From an uncultured Eubacteriales bacterium (lineage in GTDB: Bacteria; Bacillota; Clostridia; Peptostreptococcales; Anaerovoracaceae): 37,005 nucleotides of DNA. Below are positions 24,408 through 35,231 of the stretch, piece after piece. The first letter of the stretch is position 1. Every line of letters begins with the position of its first letter. The notes under the pieces are model-generated. The model worked only from the letters and a program-made list of their open reading frames with translations. It searched no databases and was not told the origin of the DNA. The stretch covers positions 1-37,005 of the forward strand of contig CACYYH010000012.1 in assembly GCA_902778565.1 (NCBI GenBank), given 5' to 3'. The position numbers and the translations under genes were made by a program.

Positions 24408-26495
24408 ATGAAAGATTTCGGCATAAGCAGGGTGCTGGAGCCAAAGGGCTCCATACCCGTGGCAGCTTGGAAACTTGATAATTCAAAGAAGATCCGGTCT
24501 GAAGAGATCCGGATCTCTTTGGATTGGATAGATTTTGAAAGAGACAACATGGACCAGATCGCGGCCATTTCTGAATACGATCCTGCGGAGACCCGGTCCC
24601 GCATAATGAAGATCATTCAGGAGAGGGGCAAACTCCATAATCCATATACTGAATCCAGCGGCGTCTTTGCAGGTGTTATCGAAGCCTGCGGAAAAAACGT
24701 GGATCTGGATGCAAGAGGGCTCAGGATCGGCGACAGAGTAGTGGGAACGTGCCCGCTGGCAGGTCTTCCCATGTATCTTGAAGAGATAACCGAACTGGAT
24801 TTCAACTACAGCCAGGCAAAGGTAAAAGGCTATATCATCTGTTTTGAGACCTCAAACCTTTACAGGGTCGATGATAAGGAAATAAACGTTCCCCATCTTC
24901 TGAGAGCCATCGATGAAGAGGGTAACTTCGAAGGCATACAGTACGAGCTTATGACCCACAGGTCCAGAAACGTGGCTATCGTGGGAAGCAATCTGGCTGA
25001 AGCGGTGCTTTATTCGAACCTGGTGAAAAAGACCTGGTTCGGGGACTGCAGAGTCACCTTCATAATGGATAAAGCATATCTGTATGAAGGTATGGAGGAA
25101 GACCTGGCAGAGGTGTTCGGGGATACTGTAGACAGGATCTACGGCGTGAATCTTTCAAGCCCCTACGAGGCAGGCCTGGACGTTATCCGCAAGGAGGACG
25201 GCCGGCTCTTCGACTGCACCATAAATCTTGAAAACATCGCGGGCTGCGACAGCTTCACTGCTCTCATAACAAAGAACAAAGGCGAGATCTGTTTCATCAG
25301 TATGAGCAACCGATACAACCAGAGCATGCTTGCAGCGGATTCCATGGGCAAGGAAGTATTCTTCTATGCTTTGGACGGCTTCAAAGATACCACCTTTGAA
25401 TTCTCAAAGGAACTGGTGGAGTATTCGAAGCCATGCCTTGACAGGCTGGATGAGTTCTACAGAGAGAAAGCTCCGGAGAAGGGTATGCCTATCCTTGAGG
25501 CATCTCTTGGAGAGAGAACGAAGAGGGCTGTCAGAAACATCGACAACTTTATCTATGAGTCTCCCGCTACCGGAGAAATGGTGGAAGAGGTGCTGAACAT
25601 CGCCAGATATGACGCCAACGTCATAATCCAGGGTGAGACCGGTTCAGGTAAGGAAAGAGTATTCGATCTGATCCAGCAGAATTCCCTTAGACGCGAGAAA
25701 CCTGCCATAAAGATAAACTGTGCCACCATCCAGGAAAACCTGGCTGAAAGCGAATTTTTCGGCTATGAGAAGGGGTCTTTCACCGGAGCCTCCGCTGAAG
25801 GCAAGGACGGATATTTTGCTCTGGCCAACAACGGTACGCTGTTCCTGGACGAGATAGGCAGTCTGCCCCTTGATATGCAGGCGAAGCTCCTCAGAGTACT
25901 TCAGGAGAATACTTTCTACAGGATCGGAGGTACCGAACCCATACACGTGAACGTCAGGGTCATTGTGGCCAACAACGTACCGCTGAAGAAGCTGGTGGAG
26001 GAGGGCAAGTTCAGGGAAGACCTGTACTACAGGCTCAATATCTGTCAGATCAACGTACCCCCTCTGAGAGCCAGAAAGGAGGATATCGTCTGCCTTGCGG
26101 ATGCATTCCTGAAGAACTACGGTGAAAAGTACGGCCTTCCGAAATCATTCTCACCGGATGCTTACAAGGAACTGATGGAGTATCATTGGCCCGGTAACGT
26201 AAGGGAACTGGAAAACACAGTTCACAGACTGTACATCACCGAAAGAGGAGACGTGATCGACGGAGCAGACGTCAGCAGTATGCTGAACGAAAGTGTCTTC
26301 GATGACGTGGTCGTGGACGTGAGAAAAGAGTTCAGCAGGGACAAGGATCTGACGTTTGATTCAATAATGAATCAACAAGAAGAGAGATTGATCGCCTTTG
26401 CCCTTAAAAAAGAGGGTACAACCAGGGCTGCTGCAGAATTTCTGGGCATGCCTCAGGCAACGCTGGCCAGAAAAAAGATCAAGCATGGTCTGTAA
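24408..26495 (+). CDS. Sigma-54-dependent activator fused to a diaminohexanoate-dehydrogenase-like domain
   Basis: 695 residues from ATG 24408 (a TTG 27 nt upstream overlaps the previous gene; SD is weak). Residues 1-~365 resemble L-erythro-3,5-diaminohexanoate dehydrogenase (Kdd, lysine fermentation): RVLEPKGSIPVAAWKLDN at the start, then ERGKLHNPYTESSGVFAG, GLRIGDRVVG, and a Rossmann strand VAIVGSNLAEA at about 189 in which the glycine motif is degenerate. Residues ~385-620 are an AAA+ domain: Walker A GETGSGKE (409-416), loop GSFTGA (456-461; Ala to Ser variant of GAFTGA), Walker B TLFLDEIG, arginine region FREDLYYRLN. A Fis-type HTH ends the protein (TTRAAAEFLGMPQATLARK). Inferred: the enzyme-like half senses a metabolite. 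A perfect candidate operator lies inside its own 3' end. Confidence 0.9.
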   Translation: MKDFGISRVLEPKGSIPVAAWKLDNSKKIRSEEIRISLDWIDFERDNMDQIAAISEYDPAETRSRIMKIIQERGKLHNPYTESSGVFAGVIEACGKNVDLDARGLRIGDRVVGTCPLAGLPMYLEEITELDFNYSQAKVKGYIICFETSNLYRVDDKEINVPHLLRAIDEEGNFEGIQYELMTHRSRNVAIVGSNLAEAVLYSNLVKKTWFGDCRVTFIMDKAYLYEGMEEDLAEVFGDTVDRIYGVNLSSPYEAGLDVIRKEDGRLFDCTINLENIAGCDSFTALITKNKGEICFISMSNRYNQSMLAADSMGKEVFFYALDGFKDTTFEFSKELVEYSKPCLDRLDEFYREKAPEKGMPILEASLGERTKRAVRNIDNFIYESPATGEMVEEVLNIARYDANVIIQGETGSGKERVFDLIQQNSLRREKPAIKINCATIQENLAESEFFGYEKGSFTGASAEGKDGYFALANNGTLFLDEIGSLPLDMQAKLLRVLQENTFYRIGGTEPIHVNVRVIVANNVPLKKLVEEGKFREDLYYRLNICQINVPPLRARKEDIVCLADAFLKNYGEKYGLPKSFSPDAYKELMEYHWPGNVRELENTVHRLYITERGDVIDGADVSSMLNESVFDDVVVDVRKEFSRDKDLTFDSIMNQQEERLIAFALKKEGTTRAAAEFLGMPQATLARKKIKHGL
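26356..26375. promoter_or_regulatory. Candidate enhancer site 1 (perfect palindrome)
   Basis: TTGATTCA and TGAATCAA with a 4-bp ATAA spacer, inside the 3' coding end of the sigma-54 activator. Centre is about 342 bp upstream of the predicted start at 26708. Sites 2 and 3 share the same arms and spacer length. Confidence 0.65.
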
Positions 26496-26503
26496 ACCGA
26501 GTG

Positions 26504-26523
26504 TTGATTCAATAATGAGTCAG
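26504..26523. promoter_or_regulatory. Candidate enhancer site 2
   Basis: TTGATTCA (26504-26511), spacer ATAA, TGAGTCAG (26516-26523). Left half identical to site 1; right half differs at two positions. Centre about -194. Confidence 0.65.
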
Positions 26524-26534
26524 AAATACATATA

Positions 26535-26554
26535 CTGATTCAAATATGAATCGA
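26535..26554. promoter_or_regulatory. Candidate enhancer site 3
   Basis: CTGATTCA (26535-26542), 4-bp spacer, TGAATCGA (26547-26554). Centre 31 bp from site 2 (about three helical turns), about -163 from the predicted start. Confidence 0.65.
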
Positions 26555-26680: not shown

Positions 26681-26697
26681 TTGGCACGGCTGATGCT
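26681..26697 (+). promoter_or_regulatory. Sigma-54 (-24/-12) promoter
   Basis: TTGGCACG (26681-26688), four bases, ATGCT (26693-26697). The GG and GC doublets are separated by exactly 10 bp, as RpoN requires; against YTGGCACG-N4-TTGCW only the first T of TTGC differs. A/T tracts at 26617-26672 between the enhancer sites and promoter could provide the bend. Predicted start about 26708. Confidence 0.88.
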
Positions 26698-26767: not shown

Positions 26768-27511
26768 ATGGATATCAATAAATACTTAGACTTTGCTTTT
26801 GAAACTGCAGTTGACACAATAGACGTTGGCGCATTCAGCCGCGAGGACGCTCTTAAGATGGTTATCACCGGAATGAAGGCTTTCGGAAAGAGAAACGGAT
26901 TTGACTTCTCTGACGAAGACATCAAAGCAAGAGCAGAAGCAGGACTTAAAGAACTCGGCCATGCAGAAGCTGATTTCGACGCTAAGCACAGAGTTGATTC
27001 CATCAACGCTCCTAAGACTACCACAAGAGAAGAAATGCTTGAATATGCTTTCCAGTCCGCTACAGCTGCTATCGAGCCCGGCGTTTTCACTCCTGACGTT
27101 GCCATTAAGATGGTAATGACCGGAATGCAGGCTTACAGCGAAACAAACAACCAGGGATTCACTGCTGAAGAGATCCGCACTTTCGCTGAAAAGAAGATGA
27201 GAGAGCTCGAAGTTGCAGATGCTGATTTCGATGAAAAGCACAGAGCAGATTCAGTAAACGCTCCCAAGGAAACAACTCACGAAGATTTCCTTAATTACGC
27301 TTTCGAATCAGTTACAGCTATCCTTGACCTCGGCGGATTCAAGCCTGAGGATGCACTGAAGATGGCTGTTACCGGCATGAAGGCATATGCTTATGACAAC
27401 GGCCAGAAGTTCACCAACGAAGAGATCATCGAAACTGCAAAGAAGAAGATGAAAGATATCTTCGGAGCTTCCAAGGACTATGAATACCTTGACTGGTCAA
27501 TGCCCAGATAA
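26768..27511 (+). CDS. Unrecognised protein of three 84-residue repeats under sigma-54 control
   Basis: 247 residues. Three repeats with exact 84-residue phase: the aromatic start (YLDFAFE, MLEYAFQ, FLNYAFE) with its Leu at 7, 91 and 175; GxF...(D/A)xKM.(V/I)TGM(K/Q)A(F/Y) from 21, 105 and 189. The first two repeats end in ADFDxKHRxDSxNAPK; the third replaces this with a DYEYLDWSMPR tail. No signal peptide or membrane segment; acidic, helical. SD TGGAGGA before ATG 26768. I recognise no family. Sole gene between the -24/-12 promoter and the next terminator, so it is the evident target of the upstream activator. Confidence 0.88.
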   Translation: MDINKYLDFAFETAVDTIDVGAFSREDALKMVITGMKAFGKRNGFDFSDEDIKARAEAGLKELGHAEADFDAKHRVDSINAPKTTTREEMLEYAFQSATAAIEPGVFTPDVAIKMVMTGMQAYSETNNQGFTAEEIRTFAEKKMRELEVADADFDEKHRADSVNAPKETTHEDFLNYAFESVTAILDLGGFKPEDALKMAVTGMKAYAYDNGQKFTNEEIIETAKKKMKDIFGASKDYEYLDWSMPR

Positions 27512-31318: not shown

Positions 31319-33019
31319 ATGAAATTAGTAGTAGTAGGCGGAGTTGCCGGCGGTGCTTCAGCCGCAGCTCGTGTCAGAAGACTTGATCCGTCAGCGGAAG
31401 TAGTTGTTTTTGATAAGGGGGATTATGTTTCCTATTCCAACTGCTCGCTTCCGTATTATCTTGGCGGTGTGGTCACAAGCGACCGTGCCCTCATAATGAT
31501 GACGCCTGACGGTTTCAGAAACAGCCATGATATCGACGTCAGAGTAAGAAGAGAAGTTACGGCGATCGACCGTGAAAATAAGGAAGTTACCGTTCTCAAC
31601 CTCAATACCGGCGAAGAGTATAAGGAATCATATGACAAGCTGGTTCTGAGCCCGGGAGCCAGACCTGTGATGCCGCCTTCCATCAAAGGCATCTTCGGTT
31701 CCAACGTTTACTCGGTAAGAACGGTGAACGACGTAGTTAAGATCAATAACGCTGTTGCGGCTTCTGCAGAAAAAAAGATCACCGTCGTAGGCGGCGGATT
31801 CATAGGAGTGGAAGTAGCAGAAAACTTAGCGAATAAAGGCTGTGAAGTCACACTGGTAGAGGGTTTGGATCAGATCCTGCAGCCATACGATTATGATATG
31901 GTTCAGATGCTTCACAAAGAAATGGACGACCACGAAGTCAAGCTGTACCTGAAATCCACCTTAAAGGAGATCTGCCCGGATCACGTGGTCATCGAAAGGA
32001 ATGGAGAAGAACTGGAGATAGAGTCAGACCTGGTAGTCATGGCCATCGGCGTTCGTCCTGAGACAGAGCTGGCCAAGTCCTGCGGCCTTGAGATAGGCGA
32101 GACAGGAGGCATCAAGGTCAATCACAATTTCCAGACCAGCGATCCCGACATCTACGCTGTAGGAGATGCCATCGAGTTCCCTAACTTCTTCACCGGAAAA
32201 GCCGGAAGACTGGCCCTGGCAGGACCTGCGCAGAGACAGGCGAGAGCTGCAGCCGATCACATGTACGGAAGAGATAATCATCTCAAGGGATACATAGGAT
32301 CCTCATGCATCAAAGTATTCGGACTGAACGCAGCAGCTACAGGACTCAATGAAAAAGCCTGCCGGAAAGAAGGGATCAATTATGATCACGTCATCATCTT
32401 CCCTTCAGATAAAGTAAGCATAATGCCGAATGCTCACTATCTTGCCCTCAAACTGTTATTTGAGGTTCCGACAGGCAGGATACTTGGCGCACAGGCTATC
32501 GGAAAAGGCGAGGCGGACAAGAGAGTTGACGTTATCGCTGCCATGATAACCATGGGAGCGACCCTCGAAGATCTGAAGGAACTGGAACTCTGCTATGCAC
32601 CTCTCTTCACAACAGCAAAGGATCCCGTGAACTTTGCGGCTCTTGTGGGACTGAACGTACTTAACGGAGACGTTAAACAGGTACACTTAAGAGATGTGAG
32701 GGAACTGGTGGAATCCGGAGCATATATCATCGACGTAAGGGAAGAAGGCGAGTTCAGACGCGGACACATAAAAGGCGCCCACAATATCCCTCAGAGCGAG
32801 ATACGCCGCAGGCTGGATGAGATACCCACCGACAGGCCGGTATATCTCCACTGCAGATCTTCACAGAGATCGTATTACTGCTATTGCGCATTGAAGGGCA
32901 GAGGCTTCGACAATATAGCCAACATCCAGGGATCCTTCCTGGGCATCAGCCTCTATGAGTACTTCAATGACAAGGATCAGGGAAGAGAACCCATCGTAGA
33001 CCAATACAACTTCGCATAA
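31319..33019 (+). CDS. CoA-disulfide reductase with C-terminal rhodanese domain
   Basis: 566 residues. FAD-binding GGVAGGASAAARVRR (7-21), single redox cysteine C42 in SNCSLPYYLGG, the mark of the CoADR/Npx class, NAD(P)-binding GGGFIGVEVAENLA near 160, second FAD motif YAVGDAIE, a dimerisation domain to ~440, and a rhodanese domain from ~460 with HCRSSQRS containing the catalytic Cys512. Such fusions reduce CoA-disulfide or per/polysulfide species. Followed 20 nt later by a cysteine-rich protein, suggesting a thiol or sulfane-sulfur operon; the physiological substrate is inference. Confidence 0.93.
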   Translation: MKLVVVGGVAGGASAAARVRRLDPSAEVVVFDKGDYVSYSNCSLPYYLGGVVTSDRALIMMTPDGFRNSHDIDVRVRREVTAIDRENKEVTVLNLNTGEEYKESYDKLVLSPGARPVMPPSIKGIFGSNVYSVRTVNDVVKINNAVAASAEKKITVVGGGFIGVEVAENLANKGCEVTLVEGLDQILQPYDYDMVQMLHKEMDDHEVKLYLKSTLKEICPDHVVIERNGEELEIESDLVVMAIGVRPETELAKSCGLEIGETGGIKVNHNFQTSDPDIYAVGDAIEFPNFFTGKAGRLALAGPAQRQARAAADHMYGRDNHLKGYIGSSCIKVFGLNAAATGLNEKACRKEGINYDHVIIFPSDKVSIMPNAHYLALKLLFEVPTGRILGAQAIGKGEADKRVDVIAAMITMGATLEDLKELELCYAPLFTTAKDPVNFAALVGLNVLNGDVKQVHLRDVRELVESGAYIIDVREEGEFRRGHIKGAHNIPQSEIRRRLDEIPTDRPVYLHCRSSQRSYYCYCALKGRGFDNIANIQGSFLGISLYEYFNDKDQGREPIVDQYNFA

Positions 33020-33039
33020 AGGACATAAGGAGAGAAAAA

Positions 33040-33573
33040 ATGACTGACTATTCAACACTCACACCTGAAGCAAAGGAAGCTTTAGTTGTTAAGGCAAAGA
33101 ACGTAGGATATTCTACAGAGACACTTTACGGAAACTGCATCCAGAGCACACTTCACGGCATCTACAGAGCTTTCCCTGATTTCGGTATTACCGAAGATAT
33201 GCTGAGAGGCTGCTTCGGACTTGCCGGAGGCTGCGGCTGCTGCCTTGACGGAACATGCGGAGCGCTCTTAGGAGCTGCGTGGACGATTTCCATGTCCAAG
33301 GGCAGACCCATCAGTGACCTGGGCGGCAACTATGAAGAATGCCATGCAATGGTAAGAGACGTTGTGGATACCTTCAAGAAGCAATATGGCAGCATCCTTT
33401 GCAGAGATGTGCTGGCACACAATATGGGCGAGGCCTATGACTGGAAGACTCCTGAAGGAGACCAGGGTTACATGGAGCACTTCGGAACTCATCACTGCGC
33501 TACCGCAGTTTCATTCTGCACCGAGATCGTAGCCAGAATGATCGTTGACGGAACTCTTAAGCCCATCAAATAA
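33040..33573 (+). CDS. C_GCAxxG_C_C family putative redox protein
   Basis: 177 residues. The motif region RGCFGLAGGCGCCLDGTCGALLGAAW gives the family's cysteine cluster, split by chance into short loops; further cysteines at NCIQ, ECH, LCRD, HHCA and SFC. No membrane segment. The family has no firmly known function but is often beside redox genes. SD AAGGAGAG precedes ATG 33040. In operon with the CoADR-rhodanese gene, to which it may pass electrons or sulfur (inference). Confidence 0.82.
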   Translation: MTDYSTLTPEAKEALVVKAKNVGYSTETLYGNCIQSTLHGIYRAFPDFGITEDMLRGCFGLAGGCGCCLDGTCGALLGAAWTISMSKGRPISDLGGNYEECHAMVRDVVDTFKKQYGSILCRDVLAHNMGEAYDWKTPEGDQGYMEHFGTHHCATAVSFCTEIVARMIVDGTLKPIK

Positions 33574-33587
33574 CCTGCTGATAAAGA

Positions 33588-33623
33588 ACCGCGTGACTGC
33601 ATAAAGTCACGCGGTATTTTTTT
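33588..33623 (+). terminator. Terminator of the CoADR operon
   Basis: Perfect 11-bp stem ACCGCGTGACT (33588-33598) and AGTCACGCGGT (33605-33615), loop GCATAA, followed by ATTTTTTT. Confidence 0.95.
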
Positions 33624-33731
33624 GTTCTTTTTTTGGATGACCTAAAAATAGTTATAAAAATACTAAAATCAGATACAGAAGATTTACTTTAGCTTGTTAT
33701 ATTATTAATTTAGTGAAATGGAGGTGAAAAG

Positions 33732-35231
33732 ATGAGCAAATTTATCTTTGACAACAGCCCCGGTTTAAAAGTCCTGACAGAAGAGCAGGTCAAGAAAGTC
33801 AATGAAGAGGCCCTCAGAGTTCTGGAGAACATGGGAGTGATCTTCGACTATCCCGAAGCCCGCGAGGCACTGAAGAATGCCGGCTGCAGGGTGGACGAGG
33901 AGACCAAGAAGGTATATTTTCCGCCTGAACTTGTAAACAAGTGCATTGAAACGGCTCCTGAGACCTTTGACCTTTACGATAGAAACGGCGACTACTATTG
34001 TACTTTCGGAGACGGCAAGACCAGATTCAATCCCGGATCCAGTTCCTCCAACGTACTGGAACCGGATAATCATACAGCCAGACTTTCGGCTGTAAGAGAT
34101 CTGAAGCTCCTCACCAAGGTGGCACAGAGTCTGCCTCATATAGATTTCGTTTCATCATCAGTCGTTTGTGAAGAGGCTCCCGGAGAACTTGGTTCCCAGT
34201 ATCTTTACTATACTGAGATGCAGAACTCCATCAAGCCCATCATCGGCGGCTCCACGGATGTGGAAGGAGTTCCCAGGACGTTCAAACTTCTCACCGCCAT
34301 ACTTGGATCCGAAGAGGCGGTAAGGACCAAGCCTTATACGATCTTTGACATATGCATCACATCACCTTTCAAATGGTCCGGCATCGGCGCCAGAAACGTG
34401 GTGGACTGCGTGAAATATGACATACCCATCGAGATGATCTCAGCTCAGATCGCAGGAGCTACAGGTCCGGTCACTCTGGCAGGAGCTCTCCTGGAGCACA
34501 CGGTGGAGATGCTCAGCGGCCTGGTCCTCATCCAGGTGCTGAAACCCGGCTTCCCCACGGTATACGGTGGAGCGCCGTGCATCTTCAATATGCATACCAT
34601 GTACACTCCCATGGAGGCCATGGAATGCAGCATGATCACCGCAGGCTATGCGCAGATGGGCAAGTACTACGGACTTCCGATCCATACCTATGCTGCCATG
34701 TCCGATGCCAAGATAGTTGACTATCAGGCGGGTTCTGAAACAGCCAGATCCGGTCTCATGGCTCTTGAGGCAGGATTTGATAACGTATCAGGCCCCGGCG
34801 GACTCAACGTAATAGCCGAGATGAGCATCGAGAAGCTTGTCATAGACAACGATTTCATCGGCACTTTGAAATTCTTGGAAAAGGGCATCAGGTTCGATGA
34901 GAACACCCTTGCAGGAGACCTTCTGATCGAGGTTGGAGCAGCAGGGAACTTCATGGGCACAAAACACACCCTGAAGAATTACAAAAAGGAACAGAACTAC
35001 TCCAACATCACCTTCAACTATGAAGAGAGAGCCATCTGGGAGAAGGAAGGATCCCCGGACATCATGGACAGGGCCAGAGATTACGTCAACAGCCTGAGAG
35101 ACAAGGTGATCTGCCCCATAACAGAAGAGCAGCGTGAGAGACTGGATAAGGCTTTCATCGAAGTATGTCTGGACGCCGGCCTCACAGAAGAGACCGCCCT
35201 TGACCTCATCAGAAAATATGACGAGGCCTGA
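33732..35231 (+). CDS. Trimethylamine methyltransferase (MttB) family protein, non-pyrrolysine
   Basis: 499 residues, full length for the superfamily, with no in-frame amber codon, so it is of the MtgB/MtpB-like class lacking pyrrolysine. Seen: VLTEEQVKKVNEEALRVLENMG, GVIFDYPEAREALKNAG, GSSSSNV, the GGSTDVEG and TGPVTLAGALLEH barrel loops, and SDAKIVDYQAGSETA near the C-terminus. Such enzymes demethylate glycine betaine, proline betaine, carnitine or other quaternary amines onto a corrinoid protein. No corrinoid protein, activase or BCCT transporter lies in the window; the only neighbour is an NhaC-type carrier. SD GGAGGTG 6 nt before ATG. Confidence 0.9.
   Translation: MSKFIFDNSPGLKVLTEEQVKKVNEEALRVLENMGVIFDYPEAREALKNAGCRVDEETKKVYFPPELVNKCIETAPETFDLYDRNGDYYCTFGDGKTRFNPGSSSSNVLEPDNHTARLSAVRDLKLLTKVAQSLPHIDFVSSSVVCEEAPGELGSQYLYYTEMQNSIKPIIGGSTDVEGVPRTFKLLTAILGSEEAVRTKPYTIFDICITSPFKWSGIGARNVVDCVKYDIPIEMISAQIAGATGPVTLAGALLEHTVEMLSGLVLIQVLKPGFPTVYGGAPCIFNMHTMYTPMEAMECSMITAGYAQMGKYYGLPIHTYAAMSDAKIVDYQAGSETARSGLMALEAGFDNVSGPGGLNVIAEMSIEKLVIDNDFIGTLKFLEKGIRFDENTLAGDLLIEVGAAGNFMGTKHTLKNYKKEQNYSNITFNYEERAIWEKEGSPDIMDRARDYVNSLRDKVICPITEEQRERLDKAFIEVCLDAGLTEETALDLIRKYDEA

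Follow-up and report, generated by a model that had tools for sequence, protein, structure and literature searches.

What is a fermentation enzyme doing at the front of a sigma-54 activator, and which gene would such a protein control? The question is raised by a reading frame in a contig from a gut or rumen bacterium of the order Eubacteriales, whose genome comprises 1.78 Mb in 86 contigs and is 90% complete; the window analysed here is the whole 37,005-nucleotide stretch of that contig. The open frame as called by program begins at TTG 24381, upstream of the ATG at 24408 from which the protein is counted, and the gene divides as follows.

24408..26495, + strand: gene for the fusion of a 3,5-diaminohexanoate dehydrogenase (Kdd)-like domain with a sigma-54 activator, a member of clade II (below); 695 aa, from ATG 24408 to the stop at 26493-26495
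24408..25466, + strand: Kdd-derived presumed sensor domain, aa 1-353, by profile and PDB homology
24981..25004, + strand: VGSNLAEA, an eroded glycine-rich dinucleotide motif, aa 192-199, by alignment with the enzymes
25551..26051, + strand: Sigma54_activat AAA+ domain, aa 382-548, with GSFTGA at 25773-25790
26364..26489, + strand: Fis/HTH_50-like putative DNA-binding end, aa 653-694, below the Pfam cut-off

The likeness of the N-terminal half to Kdd, first proposed in a preliminary description made by reading the sequence, was borne out by profile searches. The NCBIfam model NF052381 (Lys_ferment_KDD) matches aa 5-154 of the window protein with an E value of 6.9e-29, although at 101 bits the match misses the curated cut-off of 200 bits, and the Kdd entries 7dl3, 7dl0 and 7dl1 of the PDB match aa 4-351 with a best E value of 7e-17 for the single sequence and 3.6e-50 for a profile of 34 aligned fusions (profile positions 3-353), so that homology runs along nearly all of the enzyme. 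No sensor-domain model of Pfam or NCBIfam lies over this half, the only match being that of NF052381 below its cut-off; the domain is neither unrelated to Kdd nor a sensor already catalogued in those collections. Where other sigma-54 activators carry one of the usual sensors, this protein thus has an enzyme fold, as had been supposed, and we infer that it serves as the sensor.

The C-terminal half matches Sigma54_activat (PF00158) over aa 382-548 with an E value of 4.5e-63 and 212.3 bits (cut-off 20.2), and AAA_lid_14 of Pfam is matched as well. It carries GETGSGKE (aa 409-416) and TLFLDEIG (aa 477-484), which we take to be the Walker A and a Walker-B-like motif, FREDLYYRLN (aa 535-544), and GSFTGA (aa 456-461), a variant of the GAFTGA loop. 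GSFTGA recurs in 19 of the 33 other clade II proteins, with GAFTGA in 12 and neither in 2; the Walker A pattern used matches 13/44 clade I proteins and hence is no description of that clade. While the AAA+ core with its GSFTGA is as originally described, the Fis-type helix-turn-helix named with it is weak, with matches below cut-off to HTH_50 (E 0.0066) and HTH_8 (E 0.16); the C-terminal ends of clade II proteins are alike throughout and resemble that of the window protein. RpoN is encoded in the genome (462 bits against a cut-off of 277).

A search for other Kdd-AAA+ fusions, one of the checks suggested at the outset, gave at least 77 besides that of the window, which fall into two main clades. 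A scan of public genome records yielded 178 confirmed stretches, of which the best 80 were kept, and the clade counts use the 77 of those 80 loci with a fusion ORF of >500 aa (L115, L121 and L132 left out). The best 80 of 178 include Emergencia, Clostridium aminobutyricum, Anaerovorax, Aminicella lysinilytica, Sinanaerobacter and Bacilliculturomica, the remainder being mostly metagenome-assembled genomes. Kdd-like matches occur in 62 of 99 relatives (the genome itself counted), many in frames of about 700 aa. Sampling across the phylum gave a match in 63 of 298 other genomes but a fusion-length frame in just one of them (G209), which suggests a concentration of the fusions in this family and order.

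In an unrooted tree with long branches, built from 86 of 88 Kdd-like ORFs (two of <270 aa were omitted, and L061, L077 and L078 had no called Kdd-like ORF), one branch with 100/100 support parts the fusions from the enzymes, a result that covers the sensor-domain tree only. A small clade III (L063, L065 and L048) branches beside the enzymes in the same tree. A quicker second tree gave a clade II of 34 rows, the window included (SH-aLRT 92), and a clade I of 44 (SH-aLRT 98). Several fusions may share a genome or a locus. L034 (4571-8812) and L035 (2258-6423) each carry a tandem pair of them; directly after the pair come a sigma-54 site, kamA and atoDA, but kdd is not adjacent. C. aminobutyricum DSM 2634 (L109, L110 and L163) has at least three, one of them followed by a sigma-54 site, atoDA and an aminotransferase gene, and another accompanied by three palindromes of the TCGANTCG type close to a FAM8-like gene (see below for FAM8).

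The surroundings of the clade I fusions give the family a metabolic setting. Kdd is encoded within 3 kb of the fusion at all 44 sampled loci (as short fragments at three of them), kamA at 36 and kal at 34, usually in the order kal <- sigma-54 site - fusion - sigma-54 site -> kdd-kamA, and by this position the clade I fusion is a predicted activator of lysine fermentation. The names kal, kamA-E and atoDA come from sequence reading and position; in the cluster, a MutS-like protein alone was named by search. Sigma-54 sites matching 10-11 of 11 positions lie within 650 bp of the fusion 70 times in 38/44 loci, against 1.0 expected, and a predicted enhancer, GCGAACC-N6-GGTTCGC with up to three mismatches, is found 55 times in 34/44 loci, against 1.27 expected; here and for clade II the expected counts are from first-order Markov resamplings, not exact shuffles.

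A separate clade I fusion lies on contig C19 of the window genome, beside kdd and kamA; there the site TGGCACGGGTTTTGCA (11/11) faces kal and TGGCATATTAATTGCA (10/11) lies 82 bp before kdd, whose product scores above the Kdd cut-off at 239.7 bits. The exact clade I core occurs at one place in this genome, before kdd, and with one mismatch at four places, against one in the control; a one-mismatch match at C2:32959 lies inside an acyl-CoA dehydrogenase-like ORF and was taken as chance. The tie to amino-acid fermentation that had been drawn for the window protein thus holds, by position, for clade I; the window protein itself lies outside the lysine cluster.

Three further features were seen in these genomes. 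Next to the lysine cluster of the window genome (L025:5596-8276) is a TRAP transporter-like gene that has a 10/11 sigma-54 site and adjoins a separate activator of the response-regulator type. At G000:C2:34566 (L205), a 10/11 sigma-54 site lies upstream of a gene that we take, from the start of its ORF, to encode a 4-hydroxybutyryl-CoA dehydratase, followed by ORFs presumed on the same grounds to be acyl-CoA dehydrogenase- and Etf-like. The clade I fusion of one congener (G001:C7:44554-45492, L014) is broken by a stop in the matched stretch, leaving an open frame of 322 aa.

The end of the window fusion gene and the region downstream of it have elements of their own.

26357..26374, no strand assigned: predicted enhancer (UAS) site, a perfect palindrome inside the fusion gene, which may be a coding coincidence
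26505..26522, no strand assigned: predicted enhancer (UAS) site TGATTCAATAATGAGTCA, by motif match
26536..26553, no strand assigned: predicted enhancer (UAS) site TGATTCAAATATGAATCG, by motif match
26682..26697, + strand: predicted -24/-12 sigma-54 promoter TGGCACGGCTGATGCT, matching 10 of 11 consensus positions
26768..27511, + strand: FAM8, the predicted target, previously unannotated; 247 aa, three repeats of a unit of about 80 aa

The promoter-like site at 26682, which lies 70 bp before FAM8, is the sole match of the -24/-12 pattern in the window (0.14 expected), and sites of 10-11/11 recur within 650 bp of the fusion throughout clade II (35 in 28/34 loci against 0.98 expected, with none in the other 6). 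The palindromes are specific to the clade. TGANTCA-N4-TGANTCA, with at most one mismatch, is found 19 times in 12/34 clade II loci, against 0.1 expected, and in 0/44 clade I loci; the clade I motif, with up to three mismatches, is found in clade II three times in 2/34 loci, against 0.77 expected. Because the clade II motif is present in just 12/34 loci, other members of the clade may bind something else, or degenerate sites. The window has three matches (26357, 26505 and 26536) and 100 shuffles of it gave none. Across the window genome, a stricter form of the motif has three matches, all at this locus, and the form with at most one mismatch occurs at four places, three of them here, against 0 in the control; no sigma-54 site of at least 9/11 lies within 1.5 kb of the fourth, one-mismatch place (C57:2251). 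The predicted enhancer of the window paralogue is thus unlike that of clade I, and its only visible target is FAM8.

Within 3 kb of the 34 clade II fusions are found FAM8 (19 loci), nhaC19 (15), pyrR (9), uraA (6), dsdA (5; D-serine ammonia-lyase by NCBIfam in both of those tested, L107 and L116) and Kdd (1). At 17 of the 19 FAM8 loci a 10-11/11 sigma-54 site lies within 300 bp of FAM8, in 14 of those 17 at 60-79 bp, and of the remaining two genes one has a 9/11 site and one has none; the other 15/34 clade II loci have no FAM8 within 3 kb. At L217 (2687-13590), three ORFs (1590, 324 and 349 aa) and one resembling dsdA lie downstream of a clade II fusion and share its strand, while FAM8 is divergent.

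FAM8 proteins consist of one (for example L097), two (L107) or three (the window and L099) of the 80-aa units, and no family of Pfam or NCBIfam matches them over its cut-off. A phage protein or a known fold was considered and rejected: the window FAM8 matches nothing in PHROGs below E 0.02, and no hit in PHROGs or the PDB had an E value under 0.002. A designed helical repeat protein (E 0.0026) heads the profile matches, and weak matches to SonA and LigA domains (E 0.34-0.47) are leads only. As a single query the window FAM8 was found in 5/99 genomes, which had suggested strict co-occurrence with the fusion; a broader profile search found the family in 38/247 family genomes and ruled this out. 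Among 44 FAM8 loci, collapsed by hand from the places found to one per locus, 24 are within 4 kb of a fusion and 20 are not, so FAM8 is not tied to the fusion alone. Kdd-activator fusions of some clade are nevertheless present in 37 of the 38 FAM8 genomes, the exception being G439, whose FAM8 match is marginal. Fourteen further FAM8 loci have mixed neighbours, and at a few of these loci there are upstream sigma-54 sites. Since FAM8 is the sole visible output of the window regulator, it is taken as a candidate effector or feedback partner.

It is unlikely that the window copy is instead a second regulator of lysine fermentation, with the lysine cluster or a lysine transporter as its target in trans. 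A candidate for the latter is the NhaC-like transporter nhaC19 (PF03553), the neighbour at 15/34 clade II loci, which often stands behind sigma-54 sites (contexts of 40/80 loci) and in G045 is accompanied by a 10/11 site and a palindrome that, read by eye, resembles the clade I motif. Orthologues of 66-70% identity are present in G000 (split at contig ends), G005, G006, G045 and G033 and absent from G001, G002 and G004, all of which are without clade II fusions. However, the clade II motif was found neither in the lysine cluster of the window genome nor at any of the 44 clade I loci, an orthologue of nhaC19 is missing from G003 despite its fusion, and the upstream stretches examined for nhaC19 of G000, G005 and G006 have no sigma-54 site of at least 9/11. 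Control of nhaC19 in trans was set aside for the window genus, where no such site precedes it.

What the enzyme domain has lost and kept bears on its function. Numbering and conservation refer to 42 sampled enzymes, all from this order, the PDB sequence being compared in pairwise and profile alignments only. The GxxGKxG glycine-rich motif of Kdd is absent from the window protein, in which GSNLAEA (193-199) stands against GANGKSG of the PDB sequence, confirming the erosion noted in the preliminary description. G193, G196, K197 and G199 are invariant in the enzymes (42/42); in clade I they are kept in 44/44, 0/44, 0/44 and 0/44 domains, in clade II in 30/34, 0/34, 0/34 and 2/34, and in clade III in 3/3, 1/3, 3/3 and 3/3. 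H7 is found in 42/42 enzymes against 1/85 fusions, that one in clade II, and H329 in 41/42 enzymes and 3/3 clade III proteins against none of the other 82 fusions. R8, E33, K75 and P79 are present in 42/42 enzymes and 85/85 fusions, and H77 is a mark of the fusions (85/85, against 3/42 enzymes).

The suggestion that the domain reports the NAD(H) state fares badly, since G196 and K197 are gone from 78/78 clade I and II domains, and this loss of the Kdd glycine motif makes NAD sensing unlikely; the retention of other enzyme-invariant residues argues for an amino-acid-like ligand. We infer that clade I and II domains have lost coenzyme binding yet retain a substrate-like pocket, with the roles of single residues read from the alignment. 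In clade III, Q18 is kept in 3/3 as well, and L048 has the whole glycine motif (GANGKIG), so some members of the family may still bind NAD; the clade is possibly an intermediate between enzyme and sensor. Its fusions (L063:9980-12052, L065:9916-11988 and L048:6893-9010) are followed by a sigma-54 site, by a Kdd-like gene in L063 and L065, and by a TRAP transporter gene.

On these comparisons it is improbable that the Kdd half of the window protein still works as an NAD(P)-dependent dehydrogenase, making the whole a bifunctional enzyme-regulator (a trigger enzyme) or a sensor of NAD(H) or redox state. The extent of the homology and the residues kept by clade III would suit such a protein, but in the window protein G196, K197, G199, H7, Q18 and H329, each present in 41-42/42 enzymes, are all substituted, and the genome already owns a full Kdd on C19. 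Compared with the enzyme, the window domain keeps the GK..NP.T...G region, R8, E33 and K75, but it is without the glycine motif and several invariant residues, falls below the family cut-off, is fused to an activator and is not encoded with kamA or kamDE.

A congener provides an empty site. The clade II fusion and FAM8 were not found in G001, G002 or G004 (94, 91 and 86% complete), and in G004 the order is glyS-ppdk-smExp-uraA-pyrR, with about 279 bp between smExp and uraA that hold no fusion, no FAM8, no sigma-54 site of at least 9/11 and no exact enhancer. The empty site was observed in this one genome, as the contig of G002 ends just past smExp and smExp was not found in G001. Because G004 has uraA-pyrR without the fusion, the site and FAM8, these two genes are probably bystanders. 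That the fusion protein instead governs the neighbouring uracil permease-pyrR operon, perhaps by sensing a beta-amino acid released when pyrimidines are degraded, was the first reading of the conserved neighbourhood and is now very improbable. It is true that uraA and pyrR adjoin the fusion in the window, G003, G005 and G006 and in G045 and G033, recur at the clade II loci counted above, and in G033 follow a 10/11 sigma-54 site (L030:6108) that lies within a different ORF some 420 bp ahead of uraA. Apart from the G004 arrangement, however, the window uraA is preceded by no sigma-54 site of at least 9/11, the site there faces FAM8, and a weak PyrR RNA site lies before uraA (RF00515, E 0.049, 34.9 bits, below the 54-bit gathering score). 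Further along the window, at 31319-35231, is a row of CoA-disulfide reductase-, C-GCAxxG-C-C- and MttB-type trimethylamine methyltransferase-like genes, each below its NCBIfam cut-off.

The reading preferred here, with a probability of about 0.7, is that the window protein is a one-component sigma-54 enhancer-binding protein with an exapted Kdd sensor, probably inactive as a dehydrogenase, that switches on FAM8 through a sigma-54 promoter. An amino-acid ligand resembling the substrate of Kdd would bind the retained enzyme domain, and its binding would free or assemble the AAA+ ring. The protein would occupy two of the TGANTCA-N4-TGANTCA sites, which stand roughly 140 and 170 bp ahead of the -24/-12 element, and perhaps also the third palindrome, some 310 bp upstream within its own gene, and the activator would then open the promoter at 26682 and turn on FAM8. 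The clade I paralogue of the same genome, judging by position, would do the same job for lysine fermentation via a different motif.

How the two circuits arose can be sketched only tentatively, with odds a little short of even. A Kdd would have become fused to an activator, lost its coenzyme site and taken over its own former pathway as clade I, and would then have been copied into an insulated clade II circuit with a new enhancer code and with FAM8, an effector or feedback partner responsive to amino acids, as its output. The window would be the minimal form of that circuit (sensor, three enhancers, promoter and FAM8), gained or lost as one block.

Enzyme-derived sensors have a precedent in GabR, in which an aminotransferase fold is joined to a winged helix; it is like the window protein in using a catabolic enzyme fold as a ligand sensor, but differs in fold, DNA binding and mechanism of activation. 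Among sigma-54 activators, the closest parallels are one-component enhancer-binding proteins that control amino-acid fermentation, such as PrdR, OrdR and others treated in the available text of PMC6615313. The window protein shares with them a layout of presumed sensor, AAA+ domain and putative HTH, adjacent predicted sigma-54 targets and a home in the Clostridia, and PrdR (NF041552) is the best NCBIfam match of its AAA+/HTH part (aa 372-689), at 314.6 bits against an equivalog cut-off of 795. The sensors named in that text are PAS, GAF, PTS-HPr, PrpR_N, ACT, CBS, Fer4, Fe_hyd, FeS, V4R and RR; a Kdd-like sensor is not among them, and the word "lysine" is absent from the main text. The available part of PMC12316311 places lysine 2,3-aminomutase among predominantly sigma-54-regulated genes in Bacilli. 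An activator of the Kdd type was not found in the literature searched, which covers few subscription papers.

If the preferred reading is true, it adds a class of sensor to the sigma-54 activators, and the series from the enzyme through clade III to clades I and II would resemble, in graded form, an enzyme turning into a sensor. FAM8 emerges as an uncharacterised family of small proteins with a very regular promoter. Furthermore, the control of lysine-to-butyrate fermentation in gut bacteria would become testable, as the clade I activator, its enhancer and its promoter sites are all predicted.
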